From positions 1 to 21,182 of IMG/VR virus record IMGVR_UViG_3300022200_002977: a stretch of 21,182 nt of DNA; one strand, 5' to 3'. This DNA comes from a virus. The notes beneath the pieces are model-generated. The model was not told the DNA's origin. It did not search any database and was given only the letters and a program-made list of their open reading frames with translations. Position 1 is the stretch's first letter. Each line of letters starts with the position of its first letter. The translations under genes were made by a program, and so were the position numbers. Positions 5,887 through 18,702 of this stretch are shown in pieces.

Positions 5887-7665
5887 ATGGCATTACTAGG
5901 ATCTTCCGTTGACCCACGCCTGTTTATGCAGGACTTCTCAGGCTTTACCCGCGCTGCTGATATTCAAGCGCAAGGGATGGCTAACCTTGGAGGCCAGATT
6001 GGAAGCGGTATCCAGAAATACGGGGAGGCAAAGGCGGAGCGCAAAAAGCTGGATGCTGGAATTAAAGCGACTGTGACTGGTATCGAAAGCGCAATCAAAA
6101 TGGGCAAAAGCCTTGGCATTGATGTTGAGTCGAGCCTATCTCCATTTTTGGAGAAAATAAACGATCCAAACGTATCTCCAACGGAAGCAGCTGCTTATGC
6201 TCAACAAGCGTCGAGTTCTATTAGCAACGTCTTGAATTTTGGAATCAAAGCTCAAGATCAAGCGTCTGAAGCAAATAAACTAAAGCTGGATGCTGCATAC
6301 AAAAATGAGCAGCTTAAAATTGCTCAGCAAAATGCAAACTCAAGGGCGCAAACTGCACTCGCTTCGGGGAATGCACCACCATCCACATTGGACGTTTCGA
6401 TTGAAGGGGGAACCCAAAAAATGCAATGGGCCGCAGAGAAAGGTTCCTATGTGCCAATTAATGTGAGCGGATTGGGTGAGGAAAGCACATCAAGTCTTAA
6501 CAATTTGCCAGCTGCCCTTAAGCCTTTTGCTAAAGATTTTGAAATAGCTGGAGCCAAATATGGAGTTCCTGCTAACATATTGGCTGCTATTTCAATGCAC
6601 GAAACCGGAAACGGGACTTCATCGGCTTTCCTCAACAAAAACAACGCAATGGGGATCTCTGACGCATCTGGGCCTGTTAAAGTTGAAAGCGTTGCTGAGT
6701 CGATTGATAAAATGGCGAGACTCCTTGGTAAAGGCATAAATGAAGGAACTGGACCATATGCAAATGCAAAATCTATTGCTGACATTGCTAATATTTATGC
6801 TCCACCCGGAGCTGGCAATGATCCAGGAAATCTAAATCAATTCTGGACACAAGGAGTTACATCAAACATCCAAAAGCTTTCCGAAAACCAAGCGGAACAA
6901 GTTGGACCTACTGCTCCACAACCACGATCGCGTCCTGGATTTGCTCCAACAAAAGAAGGAAAAGGAGAAGTCGTTACTGCGGAAGAAGCTCAAAAACGAG
7001 TCGAATCTGGGCTTTCCGTTACTTCAACTCCAATTGGAGGTGGCATGGTTCGGATTACTTCTCAAACTGGTTCTCCTAAGCCGTCTCCTGTAATAGAGTC
7101 ACCTCAATCAAAGCTCCAAACCCAACGACTGCTTGAGCTTGACAAGTCTCTTGGATCACTAAGAGAAGCCGGGACAACTGCATCTCTTGATGTGGAGCCA
7201 TTAAAAGAAATTACAAATCTTTTGAACACGAATGTCAAAACCGGATTTGGACGAGAAACATTAATGCAGGCAAAGAAGATTTTTGGACAAGATGTGTCAA
7301 GTGAGGAGGATTTCCAAGCGAGAGTTGGAGCAGAAGCAATGAAGAACATTGCTCTCACCAAAGGAGCGATTAGTGACAGAGAAATGGATTACTTCAAAAC
7401 TGTATTGTCTCCAAATATGGGCAAGACAACAGAAGGTAACAAGAAAATTATTGATTTCCGCATCAAATACGCAAATCGAGCAAATAAAATTGCCAAAACG
7501 ATTTCAAGTTTGCAAAAAGAACAAAAAGATCCATATGAAATCCAAGAAGCTGTTGATCAAATCATATCTTCTGAATCCCTCTTGACTGAAGAAAAAACTC
7601 CAGAGAGGTCACTGAGTGCAAATGAAAGGCTCCGGCTTAAAATAAAGCCACAAGGAAATCGCTAA
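5887..7665 (+). CDS. Virion protein with peptidoglycan-hydrolase (glucosaminidase-like) domain
   Basis: A 592-aa protein. Residues about 205-335 form a lysozyme-superfamily domain like bacterial glucosaminidases: FEIAGAKYGVPANILAAIS, then MHETGNG with the likely catalytic Glu239, SSAFLNKNNAMGIS, and a final stretch about tyrosine and proline (ANIYAPPGAGNDPGN) where these enzymes count out a substrate groove. The N-terminal 200 residues are coiled-coil or helical (QAQGMANLGGQIGSGIQKYG; YAQQASSSISNVLNF). The C-terminal about 170 residues are helical (SLGSLREAGTT ... RIKYANRANKIAKTIS), as in internal virion proteins. It most likely opens the cell wall during DNA ejection, since it is fused in a long virion protein and lies between two ejection-type genes, rather than acting as a lysis endolysin. 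Its stop shares an A with the next ATG. Confidence 0.72.
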   Translation: MALLGSSVDPRLFMQDFSGFTRAADIQAQGMANLGGQIGSGIQKYGEAKAERKKLDAGIKATVTGIESAIKMGKSLGIDVESSLSPFLEKINDPNVSPTEAAAYAQQASSSISNVLNFGIKAQDQASEANKLKLDAAYKNEQLKIAQQNANSRAQTALASGNAPPSTLDVSIEGGTQKMQWAAEKGSYVPINVSGLGEESTSSLNNLPAALKPFAKDFEIAGAKYGVPANILAAISMHETGNGTSSAFLNKNNAMGISDASGPVKVESVAESIDKMARLLGKGINEGTGPYANAKSIADIANIYAPPGAGNDPGNLNQFWTQGVTSNIQKLSENQAEQVGPTAPQPRSRPGFAPTKEGKGEVVTAEEAQKRVESGLSVTSTPIGGGMVRITSQTGSPKPSPVIESPQSKLQTQRLLELDKSLGSLREAGTTASLDVEPLKEITNLLNTNVKTGFGRETLMQAKKIFGQDVSSEEDFQARVGAEAMKNIALTKGAISDREMDYFKTVLSPNMGKTTEGNKKIIDFRIKYANRANKIAKTISSLQKEQKDPYEIQEAVDQIISSESLLTEEKTPERSLSANERLRLKIKPQGNR

Positions 7666-12710: not shown

Positions 12711-15254
12711 ATGCTAAAATGGACTGATCATCCGGTTCTCTCTATCCCGACGGATGAGGAAATCGCTCAAATGGAAGCCGTGGAACTGATGGAGTTTCAT
12801 CAAATCCGCGAAGAGGCTATTCGCAATGCAGCTAAAGACCCGTTCAGGTATGGATGGAAGTTCGACAACTGGAAAAAGCTTGAGAAGTGCCTTGAAACTC
12901 GAAACGAAGCACTTATTAGCGGCGGAAATCGATGCCTTGGAGGCGAGCAGGAAATTTATGACCCCGTATCCAAGACATCGACTAAGGTTAGTGAAATCAA
13001 AGGATCATTTTACGTTCATGCTTGGGACGGTCATCGAATGGTGGAAGCTCAAGCAGAGACTCCATTTCAGAAACCTGTTTCAGGGATTTACCGAGTGACA
13101 CTAAGTAACGGCGAATCTCTACATTGCTCAATGGCTCACTTGCTCCTGACACCCTCGGGATGGCAGCCTTTAAGTTCGCTCTCGTCCGGCTCCCTTCTAG
13201 TGAACGCCCAAACGCAATGTTCGCTAGTCCCTTTTCGGTCCATTTGGGGATTTTTCCCGCAAGCGTTTGGCGAAGGTGTTCGGCGTTGCTTTGAAAAAGC
13301 TCAAGATTGGATTCGTGATTATTTGCTGTGTTGCCGTCAATGTGATGAACAACCTCGCCCTTCACCAGTGGACGGCCAAGCATTAATTCCATCACATAAC
13401 GGTGTTCCCAGACGTAATAAAGCTTTCGAAAATATCCTCCATTGGCTTTCTCTTCTCTTTTTTGGTTTATGCGAACACAAGATGGGTGGTCTGGAACGTA
13501 AATCTTCACGTAGCCATTTTTGCAGAAAATCTTTCCATTATTCCATTCAGGATGGCCTTGACCAGATCGGGGACCAGTCCTTTGACACTGTATGCCGTGA
13601 CGCTTGCAAACCTTGTAGATTAGCTTCACCTGAATCCTTGGATCGGTCGATTTTGCCAACTCGTCAGCAACCCATTGCTGAGTCTTTCCTTCTTCAATCC
13701 ATTGTCGAATTTGTTCAACGGGGTATTCTATATTTCTCGCCATGCGCGAAGAATGCATTATTACCTCCAGAAGTAAAGATAAAAAATATCGATTACCTCC
13801 GAGATGATACAGTTTGGGATTTCCATGTCCCTGTCTATAATAACTATGTTGCCGCTGGGGTGGTTTCTCACAATTCTAGCAAAACTCAAGTAGGAGCATA
13901 CTTCGTAGTAAAGGCCGCTATTGAAAATCCGAATGCCGACATCTTTTGTTTTGCTCAAAACGCTGAAGTGTCAATTCGGCAGCAACAAGCAGCGGTATAT
14001 GACTGGATGCCAGCGGAATTCAAAAGCAAGCAGACAAGTCAAAACACGTATCTTTCATATTCCCGCAAAAACGGATGGACTGACAATTCTTTGATTTTGC
14101 CGAATGGATCACGGATTTCATTCAAGACATATGCAGCATTTGCAAACAATCAGACTATTTTAGAGGGTGCAGAGCTTGGATCAAAAGAAGCAACATGGCT
14201 GAATATCGGGGCTTGGTGTGACGAAATGCTTGGTGGTCCCGAATTGGTTGACACTTTAAGATTCCGACTGGCCACTAGAAACAGCAAGATGATGCTAACG
14301 TTTACTCCGATCTTTGGATATACGGAGCTGATTAAACAGTATCTTGATGGCGCGAAGGTTATCGAAAGCAGAGAAGCCGAGTTGCTAAATAATGAGATTG
14401 TTCCAACTATTCTGGAGTGCAAGAACATTAAGGGAACCGTTCATTATTTCCACTCTCAAGACAATCCTTTTGGTGGTTATGACCGAATTAGACAAACCTT
14501 AATGGGGAAGCCTAGAGAAGAAATTCTAATCAGGGCTTACGGCATACCCACAAAAGCCGCTGCCACTAAGTTTCCCAAGTTTAACAAAGTGGTTAATATT
14601 GTTTCGCCTGACGCCATTCCAACCCATAACGTTACACGTTATCATATCATTGACCCCGCTGGCGCAAAAAACTGGTTTATGTGCTGGGTTGCCATTGACG
14701 AGACTGGAACATTCTGGGTTTACCGTGAATGGCCGGGAGTTGACGTTGGTGATTGGGCTGAATGGAAGGGCGGGAAGTGGGTTCCGGGGCCGGGATGCAA
14801 GGGCCAAGGCTTCGGTATCCGCGATTACATCGAAGCCATTCAGGAAATGGAGGGCGACGAAGAAATCTTTGAGCGGTTGATCGACCCCCGGCTAGGTGCG
14901 GCAAAGTATCAGGTGCAAGATGGGTCATCCTCGATCATCGAAGACTTAAACGAATCCGGCATGGTATGCATTCCTGCACCGGGACTTGATATTGATGACG
15001 GGCTTCAGGCACTTATCGGGAAGATGGCGTGGGATACCAGCAAGCCTCTTGATTCTGTTAATAGGCCAAAGTTCTATGTAAGCTCCGATTGCGAGAACAT
15101 TATTCAGGCATTGTCAGAGTATACTGGAGACGGTGGACTAAAGGAAGCTCATAAAGATCCTATTGATGTATTGCGATACGCCGCCATTGCGAATCTCGAT
15201 CATGTTGACAACAGCCAATCATTTGTTACAACTCACGGGTCTGGTGGATATTAG
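12711..15254 (+). CDS. terL: Terminase large subunit precursor, interrupted by an intein in Walker A
   Basis: An 847-aa precursor; removing the 314-aa intein leaves a 533-aa packaging ATPase/nuclease, a usual TerL length. The N-extein ends ...NEALISGGNR (residue 74) and the C-extein begins SSKTQVGAYF (389), so splicing restores the Walker A loop GGNRSSKT. Walker B is IGAWCDE (D504, E505), followed by a coupling motif around MMLTFTPIFG. The nuclease half has the RNase-H-like acidic residues D648 (HIIDPAGA), D725 (LIDPRLGA) and D816/D819 (KDPIDVLRYA). Without splicing the P-loop is cut and the motor cannot bind ATP, so phage production should depend on the intein leaving. The gene follows terS and is followed by a small ORF 1 nt later. 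The frame is intact over its whole length. Confidence 0.93.
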   Translation: MLKWTDHPVLSIPTDEEIAQMEAVELMEFHQIREEAIRNAAKDPFRYGWKFDNWKKLEKCLETRNEALISGGNRCLGGEQEIYDPVSKTSTKVSEIKGSFYVHAWDGHRMVEAQAETPFQKPVSGIYRVTLSNGESLHCSMAHLLLTPSGWQPLSSLSSGSLLVNAQTQCSLVPFRSIWGFFPQAFGEGVRRCFEKAQDWIRDYLLCCRQCDEQPRPSPVDGQALIPSHNGVPRRNKAFENILHWLSLLFFGLCEHKMGGLERKSSRSHFCRKSFHYSIQDGLDQIGDQSFDTVCRDACKPCRLASPESLDRSILPTRQQPIAESFLLQSIVEFVQRGILYFSPCAKNALLPPEVKIKNIDYLRDDTVWDFHVPVYNNYVAAGVVSHNSSKTQVGAYFVVKAAIENPNADIFCFAQNAEVSIRQQQAAVYDWMPAEFKSKQTSQNTYLSYSRKNGWTDNSLILPNGSRISFKTYAAFANNQTILEGAELGSKEATWLNIGAWCDEMLGGPELVDTLRFRLATRNSKMMLTFTPIFGYTELIKQYLDGAKVIESREAELLNNEIVPTILECKNIKGTVHYFHSQDNPFGGYDRIRQTLMGKPREEILIRAYGIPTKAAATKFPKFNKVVNIVSPDAIPTHNVTRYHIIDPAGAKNWFMCWVAIDETGTFWVYREWPGVDVGDWAEWKGGKWVPGPGCKGQGFGIRDYIEAIQEMEGDEEIFERLIDPRLGAAKYQVQDGSSSIIEDLNESGMVCIPAPGLDIDDGLQALIGKMAWDTSKPLDSVNRPKFYVSSDCENIIQALSEYTGDGGLKEAHKDPIDVLRYAAIANLDHVDNSQSFVTTHGSGGY
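12997..13758 (-). CDS. HNH homing endonuclease encoded antisense inside the intein
   Basis: A 253-aa protein on the - strand, wholly inside the intein. Residues about 13-56 look like a helix-turn-helix (PVEQIRQWIEEGKTQQWVAD) for target binding. The catalytic core is VWEHRYVMELMLGRPLVKGE (116-135), VVHHIDGNTANNHESNLELF (136-155) and SNAEHLRQTLAG: H138/H139, D141, N143, N147, N151 and H161 fit the HNH_3-type fold typical of phage homing enzymes. ATG 13758 is preceded, 5 nt upstream, by GGAGG, unlike the neighbouring + strand genes. Residues 1-184 overlie the intein's non-functional linker; residues 185-253 run antisense into splicing block B and look like readthrough to the first stop. It would cut intein-free terL alleles to spread the element; activity is inferred. 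Confidence 0.88.
   Translation of the reverse strand: MHSSRMARNIEYPVEQIRQWIEEGKTQQWVADELAKSTDPRIQVKLIYKVCKRHGIQCQRTGPRSGQGHPEWNNGKIFCKNGYVKIYVPDHPSCVRINQKREEKANGGYFRKLYYVWEHRYVMELMLGRPLVKGEVVHHIDGNTANNHESNLELFQSNAEHLRQTLAGKIPKWTEKGLANIAFGRSLEGSRTRANLKAAIPRVSGASEPLSNVEIRRYLVSLGKSLKQVSEMESLLELPPFDDRPKHERKMIL
13764..13768 (-). promoter_or_regulatory. Strong Shine-Dalgarno of the antisense HNH gene
   Basis: Reading the - strand, GGAGG is followed by TAATA and then ATG (13758-13756), a near-ideal ribosome-binding site. A second GGAGGTAAT occurs at 13800-13792 on the same strand, 32 nt upstream, a direct repeat without a following start codon. The + strand genes of this phage largely lack such sites, so this one marks the antisense ORF as genuinely translated and decides its start over the later ATG at 13743. 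Confidence 0.8.
13804..13831 (-). promoter_or_regulatory. Candidate sigma70-like promoter for the antisense HNH gene
   Basis: On the - strand, GGGACA (13831-13826), a 16-nt spacer, then TATCAT (13809-13804) give 4/6 and 5/6 matches to the -35 and -10 consensus. Transcription would start about 35-45 nt before the HNH start codon, just upstream of both GGAGG copies. It lies in the C-terminal splicing block of the intein, so it travels with the element. It is a motif guess from sequence; no experimental support. Confidence 0.35.
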
Positions 15255-18042: not shown

Positions 18043-18702
18043 ATGGTTGAGCCACAAGAATCTTATATTGTAGAAGGGCCGATAAAAGAAGGAAAAAGAA
18101 CATTCTACATGTGCAAATGCCCATTTTGCGGAGAACTTAGAAAAGTTAGGAGTGAGTCAATACATAAAATTAAAAGCTGCCTTCCTTGCCACCATAGAAC
18201 TAACAGACCACTTAAACCTATTGGAGAATTTGAATGGTGCAATAAATGTAAAAAATGGAAACAATTTAGTGATTTTAATTTTAGGACTGGTGGGAAAGTG
18301 AGATCATGTAAAGAATGCGAAAATAATTACAGATTACAAAATTTGCAAAAAATTAACGAGTATGCCAAGAAATACAGAAAAAACAATATTCAGAATTCTT
18401 TATTTTACTCCGCTAAATCTAGAGCTAAAAAAAATGGTCTTGAATTTAATATTGAATTAAGCGATATAATTGTTCCAACGGAATGCCCAGTTCTTGGAAT
18501 CGAAATATCAACATCAAAAGAAAAAAATAACAGTCCGTCTTTAGATAAAATAATTCCGTCTTTGGGTTACACTAAAGGAAATGTAAGAGTAATTTCTTGG
18601 AGGGCAAATTGGATTAAAAATAATATGACACCAGAAGAAGCAGAAAAACTTTACAACGATTCCCGCAAATGGAAGTGCAGCGGAAGCAAATCAATGAAGT
18701 AA
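18043..18702 (+). CDS. Free-standing HNH-like endonuclease with zinc ribbons
   Basis: A 219-aa protein, strikingly AT-richer than its neighbours (runs such as AAAAAATGG and TTTTAATTTTAGG), which suggests recent arrival. The N-terminal half has zinc-ribbon Cys pairs (CKCPFCGELRK...CLPCHH, about 25-50; then WCNKCKKW...CKECENN, about 66-92). The C-terminal domain carries SAKSRAKKNGLEFNIELSD, then TECPVLGIEI, SPSLDKIIPSLGYTKGNVRV and ISWRANWIKN, a pattern well known in phage HNH endonucleases in which the canonical DHI becomes SLDKI and N of GNVRVIS stands for the second motif. The final residues SRKWKCSGSKSMK resemble the end of the preceding protein. Probable role: free-standing homing. Cleavage target unknown. 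Confidence 0.8.
   Translation: MVEPQESYIVEGPIKEGKRTFYMCKCPFCGELRKVRSESIHKIKSCLPCHHRTNRPLKPIGEFEWCNKCKKWKQFSDFNFRTGGKVRSCKECENNYRLQNLQKINEYAKKYRKNNIQNSLFYSAKSRAKKNGLEFNIELSDIIVPTECPVLGIEISTSKEKNNSPSLDKIIPSLGYTKGNVRVISWRANWIKNNMTPEEAEKLYNDSRKWKCSGSKSMK

Follow-up and report, generated by a model that had tools for sequence, protein, structure and literature searches.

A phage terminase intein with a predicted HNH nuclease gene on the opposite DNA strand

Introduction

Inteins are normally described as self-splicing proteins whose homing enzyme, if any, is part of the same polypeptide. In class-1 inteins the endonuclease (LAGLIDADG, less often HNH) is normally nested in-frame. Looser associations between splicing elements and mobility genes also appear to exist, including group I introns with a homing endonuclease gene on the antisense strand in the nuclear rDNA of algae, and the 'fractured genes' of Dassa et al. 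2009, in which split inteins appear to flank a free-standing endonuclease gene. Here a locus is examined in which an intein interrupts the terminase large subunit (TerL) of a phage and an HNH protein is encoded on the opposite strand of the intein linker. The window analyzed was the whole of an IMG/VR virus record (IMGVR_UViG_3300022200_002977) of 21,182 bases. A sequence-only reading of this window had proposed that a mini-intein in the Walker A motif of TerL acquired an HNH gene in inverted orientation, uncoupling endonuclease expression from protein splicing. This interpretation was supported, although several details required correction and the arrangement was found to be much broader than proposed.

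Results and discussion

Anatomy of the interrupted terL gene

The ORF at 12711-15254 (+, 847 aa) encodes a terminase large subunit, and relatives in viral contigs are full-length TerLs. The N-extein (12711-12932, +) ends in GGNR, the start of Walker A, while the C-extein (13875-15254, +) begins with SSKT, the remainder of Walker A, and contains Terminase_6N/6C. The C-extein exceeded the Pfam Terminase_6N gathering score (PF03237, 23.1 bits against a cutoff of 22), although a PHROG search of the window TerL gave nothing. Residues 75-388 (12933-13874, +) form a class-1 intein of 314 residues, with Cys1, a block B S-M-A-H, a terminal His-Asn and a +1 Ser. The Pfam Intein_splicing model (PF14890) scored 37.4 bits against a cutoff of 35.8, the NCBIfam intein C-terminal model (TIGR01443) matched above cutoff, and profile hits to PDB inteins reached E 6e-16. 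Among 81 unique relatives all keep Cys1, the terminal Asn and Ser/Thr+1; however, 17 of 81 have Lys instead of the penultimate His, suggesting splicing efficiency may vary.

The N-terminal splicing domain (12933-13208, +; blocks A and B) is conserved and was modelled at pLDDT 93-98 for residues 1-90, and the C-terminal splicing domain (13767-13874, +; blocks F and G, ending SHN) was modelled at pLDDT 92-98. The top PDB matches of the intein model were the NpuDnaB and Mtu RecA mini-inteins. In contrast, the sense linker between them (13209-13766, +) is open but not conserved as a protein, with no Pfam match, no conserved columns and a pLDDT of 25-56, and is predicted to be unstructured.

The antisense strand encodes an HNH protein at 12997-13758 (-), matching PF13392 HNH_3 above cutoff (E 1e-7) and PHROG HNH families down to 2e-20. 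The ORF is 253 aa from the ATG at 13758, with an alternative ATG at 13743 giving 248 aa. The sequence-only reading had placed it at 13206-13772, exactly on the linker. The ORF does not stop at the linker, and its C-terminal ~70 residues overlap the N-terminal splicing domain. The catalytic core (13277-13407, -) reads EHRYVME...EVVHHIDGN...N...NLELF. H134, N142 and N146 were invariant in alignments of 46-47 members, and H133 was likewise invariant in 46 sequences, although the Pectobacterium phage Koroua has Asp in place of the first His. The HNH protein was modelled at pLDDT 91 with N-terminal helices, an HNH core and C-terminal helices, and the only meaningful PDB match was the HNH homing endonuclease I-HmuI (prob 0.99, E 0.036, partial coverage, TM 0.25-0.33).

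Distribution of the opposite-strand arrangement

To determine whether the arrangement was restricted to the window, related loci (designated here by L numbers) were collected. All 27 or so intein-bearing TerL loci first examined carried the HNH on the antisense strand in the same antisense frame. A search seeded only with the splicing domain, without HNH information, returned about 67 loci with a linker, all with the HNH on the opposite strand and none in sense, plus about ten mini-inteins without it. An apparent in-frame loss of the HNH in L102, L106-L108 and L111-L115 was an alignment artefact, since tblastn ran past the HNH stop into the conserved splicing domain, and a profile search found intact HNH ORFs in these loci. 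A search seeded with HNH proteins yielded 63 clusters at 85% nt, of which 54 have a TerL-type ORF open through the whole gene on the opposite strand. All 54 share one phase, with antisense position 1 opposite sense position 1 and the antisense wobble opposite sense position 2. As the HNH query was itself intein-borne, this result does not extend to HNH_3 proteins at large, and free-standing relatives exist (e.g. L252, L175). The opposite ORFs of L189 and L242 lie in another phase, that of L242 without a family match, and were treated as chance. Exteins tested match terminase families (Terminase_6N/6C or PHROG terminase large subunit) in most cases, while a few (L134, L154, L155, L163) match no family but keep the intein in a comparable position. 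Two such loci come from bacterial MAGs (L170 Phycisphaeraceae, L171 Deltaproteobacteria).

Uninterrupted sites were also common. Many contigs carry an intact GGNRSSKT or GGNRSGKT, with TerL exteins up to 94-95% identical to that of the window. Natural mini-inteins of 130-132 aa without HNH were found in L069/L253 and L254 and are 85-89% nt identical to the splicing domain of the HNH-bearing L007 clade, suggesting secondary loss there. Interestingly, L305 and L131 carry a second insert further downstream in TerL, ending CGN/C, with a conventional LAGLIDADG-like region in sense (motif read by eye), and L065 carries such an insert alone. One gene can thus hold both designs.

Cultured REPRESENTATIVES

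The arrangement was present, unannotated, in cultured Pectobacterium phages. Koroua, Ymer and Taid carry a 754-aa 'hypothetical protein' beside the portal gene that is TerL (in Koroua with Terminase_6N and 6C above cutoff), with an intein and an antisense HNH. Sabo, Abuela, Amona, Pappous and Setonix have matching TerL and HNH hits. The cultured phage KW1E_UTAR has an intact GFG/TGKSQT where Koroua has an insert. The paper describing this genus mentions neither inteins nor endonucleases (PMC11445585). These phages form plaques with a terL interrupted in Walker A in Koroua and Ymer, so their TerL presumably splices, assuming TerL is essential and present once.

Selection on both strands

In the 54 clusters the intein frame contains 0 stops in 11,093 codons across the HNH gene, against 350 expected when synonymous codons are permuted within each gene with the HNH protein kept. 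The other two opposite frames hold 343 and 596 stops, and free-standing relatives hold 4-17 stops each in the same phase. In this phase Phe followed by Ile/Met/Thr/Asn/Lys would unavoidably create a sense stop, and this was observed for 0 of 135 Phe in intein HNHs against 10 of 46 in free-standing ones. Clusters were grouped by having an open opposite ORF, but almost every viral HNH locus found qualified.

Substitutions mirror at the linker. Splicing domains change mostly at sense position 3 (65-91%), while the HNH core changes mostly at sense position 2 (54-72%). In the core 57-69% of changes are synonymous in antisense but only 11-20% in sense, whereas in the C-terminal splicing domain the values are 4-11% and 71-84%, respectively. 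This was observed in four clades, although pairs within a clade are not independent, and the pattern is mixed where the HNH C-terminus overlaps the N-terminal splicing domain. The same holds between Koroua and Taid, with differences of 12/5/126 in the C-extein and 5/16/7 in the HNH region at sense positions 1/2/3. Furthermore, HNH proteins of four intein clades are 37-60% identical to that of the window with catalytic residues invariant, while the sense linkers do not align meaningfully. This is the opposite of what would have counted against the sequence-only reading, namely a sense linker conserved as a protein and an antisense frame that is not. Rather than a one-off acquisition, the arrangement is shared by a broad family.

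Horizontal mobility

The inteins of the window and L001 are 91% identical in DNA although the exteins are 69% nt / 76% aa identical. In contrast, the extein of L001 is 98.8% identical to an empty TerL (L073) and about 96% to L015 and L259, whose inteins are only 66-71% nt identical to that of L001. The splicing domain and HNH co-diverge, although only moderately (Mantel r 0.49, p 0.0005; partial r 0.39 given the extein). This is what horizontal spread of an intein together with its HNH gene predicts.

Putative expression signals of the HNH gene

Sigma70-like promoters were identified upstream of many HNH starts, inside the sense code for the linker end and the C-terminal splicing domain, and score 8.85 on average against 5.92 when the same sense protein is recoded synonymously (z 11.4). 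Two layouts appear: a -10 element ending 6-11 nt before the ATG with no Shine-Dalgarno (SD) sequence (e.g. L008, L110, L097, L285), consistent with leaderless mRNA, and a -10 element 26-44 nt upstream, usually with an SD (e.g. L125, L130, L135, L155). Among the 26 best-scoring clusters compared the two properties are associated (0/13 against 8/13, Fisher p 0.0016), with thresholds chosen by us. A strict SD was found in 16 of 54 clusters against 1.1 expected.

In the window the sequence-only reading had noted a ribosome-binding site for the HNH gene, and an SD-like GGAGG (13764-13768, -) does lie 5 nt before the ATG at 13758. However, in sister inteins this stretch sits in the spacer of a sigma70-like promoter placed next to the ATG at 13743, so the SD reading is uncertain for the window. 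The homologous position in the window (13750-13777, -) reads TTTACT-16-CATTCT, 6 nt before the ATG at 13743, and is weak (best match p 0.116), compared with the strong TTGACA-16-TATTGT/TATTAT in L008, L259 and L110. A generic promoter scan of the window alone was uninformative; only the family comparison with a synonymous null was informative. Uncoupling of endonuclease expression from splicing is supported by the embedded antisense promoters of the family, but has not been shown experimentally.

Interpretation

The results are most consistent with a mobile class-1 intein in the Walker A motif of tailed-phage TerL whose inferred homing endonuclease is a separate gene on the opposite strand of the linker, a reading to which we assign a probability of roughly 0.86 in the absence of transcript, protein, splicing or cleavage data. 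On the sense strand, TerL would be translated straight through (847 aa), the linker being an unstructured read-through of antisense coding DNA, and the splicing domain is inferred to excise the insert and restore a 533-residue TerL. On the antisense strand, the HNH protein is inferred to be made from its own transcript, often from a promoter embedded at the junction of the linker and the C-terminal splicing domain. It presumably nicks or cuts intein-less terL at the GGNR/SGKT site during co-infection, with repair copying the intein together with its nuclease gene. The two frames are coupled chiefly by the rule that the HNH gene may create no stop in the sense frame.

A more far-reaching reading, which we consider probable but less secure, is that these loci represent a widespread class of phage 'opposite-strand inteins' in which protein splicing and homing are encoded on the two strands of the same DNA. 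In this reading the nuclease has its own, often leaderless, antisense promoter inside the splicing-domain code, and its sequence is shaped by stop avoidance in the splicing frame, so that nuclease timing and dose are set independently of late terL expression.

Alternative explanations are unlikely. The antisense HNH may be functional but serve DNA packaging, as HNH proteins encoded beside terminase genes appear to assist terminase cutting (a title on this is cited in PMC10448857), and the location of an HNH protein in terL fits such a role. However, TerL relatives up to 94-99% identical lack intein and HNH, so the phages do not need it; mini-inteins lack it; it travels with the intein between divergent exteins; and its nearest fold is the homing enzyme I-HmuI. 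It is similarly doubtful that the antisense transcript matters mainly as RNA, regulating or delaying terL expression with the HNH protein secondary. The embedded antisense promoters with very short or no leaders would fit this view, but strong purifying selection on the HNH amino-acid sequence, with wobble-position changes, is not expected of an RNA-only function. The several mini-inteins without HNH and the weak promoter of the window leave slight room for a further reading, against which stand an HNH frame intact with invariant catalytic residues in most lineages and the evidence of transfer between divergent exteins. Finally, although GC-rich genes often show open antisense frames and L189 and L242 show apparently chance opposite ORFs in another phase, a chance shadow of one frame by the other is refuted by the absence of sense stops and the reciprocal strand-specific wobble patterns, together with the Pfam and PHROG HNH matches and the intein catalytic residues kept in all 81 unique inteins.

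Comparison with known systems

Both components belong to known families, while the architecture appears to be new, as no description of an antisense homing endonuclease gene inside an intein was found in the searchable open-access literature. Gene callers miss the nuclease, which was unannotated in the Pectobacterium phage records examined, so the class is easy to overlook. The family makes the cost and benefit of fusing splicing and homing directly testable, and is a clean natural case of long, two-strand protein coding under opposite selection, with matched controls in mini-inteins, empty alleles, free-standing HNH relatives, and ordinary sense inteins in the same gene. The linkers may also supply new mini-inteins and HNH enzymes for protein engineering.

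Compared to class-1 inteins with a nested in-frame endonuclease, this intein has the same splicing blocks A, B, F and G, the same Cys1/Asn/Ser+1 residues, a linker at the usual endonuclease insertion point, and an active-site insertion in an essential gene, but its endonuclease is antisense, is not part of the precursor, and has its own start and, in many lineages, its own promoter. I-HmuI, of the SPO1 group I intron, is likewise a phage HNH enzyme with additional DNA-binding elements, but it is encoded in sense in a group I intron, the fold match is partial and the sequence is distant. The group I introns of algal rDNA would share a mobility gene on the strand opposite to the splicing element; however, an RNA intron need not stay open in sense, while here the host-strand frame must be translated through, creating a two-strand coding constraint. 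In the 'fractured genes' of Dassa et al. 2009 the endonuclease likewise appears to be expressed apart from the splicing domain, while here the intein is contiguous and the endonuclease gene lies inside it on the other strand.

Additional predicted proteins in the window

A 592-aa protein (5887-7665, +) contains a glucosaminidase domain (PF01832, above cutoff), and is possibly a virion-associated lysin. In a 1488-aa phage protein (7665-12131, +), at residues about 1163-1191, a weak match to the e3_binding domain of 2-oxoacid dehydrogenase E2 enzymes (PF02817, 16.7 bits, below cutoff) and a HExxH-like motif (MHEAGHMIQH) were detected. An Endonuclease VII-like protein (18043-18702, +; phrog_3322, E 5e-34) was also identified, which in addition weakly resembles the Srd anti-sigma and sigma70-decoy families.

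Variation among TerL inteins

Of the 81 unique inteins, 17 encode a penultimate Lys (QKN/S) instead of His, an unusual splicing C-terminus, e.g. those in contigs L015, L017, L029, L047, L049, L051, L052, and L056. Natural TerL mini-inteins of 130-139 aa without endonuclease were found in L257, L260, L273, L278, L298, L307, L308, and L313, and represent candidates for engineering. Interestingly, the same intein/antisense-HNH type in contig L290 (2803-5502, +) was apparently inserted slightly upstream of the usual point in the P-loop (RG/SNRAGKT), representing a second insertion site. Furthermore, a second insert located downstream in TerL (ending CGN/C) was observed in L305 (3770-7294, +), L131 (1650-4841, -), and L065 (131-2761, +). 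This insert carries a conventional LAGLIDADG-like region in sense, and in L305 and L131 it coexists with the antisense-HNH intein at Walker A.
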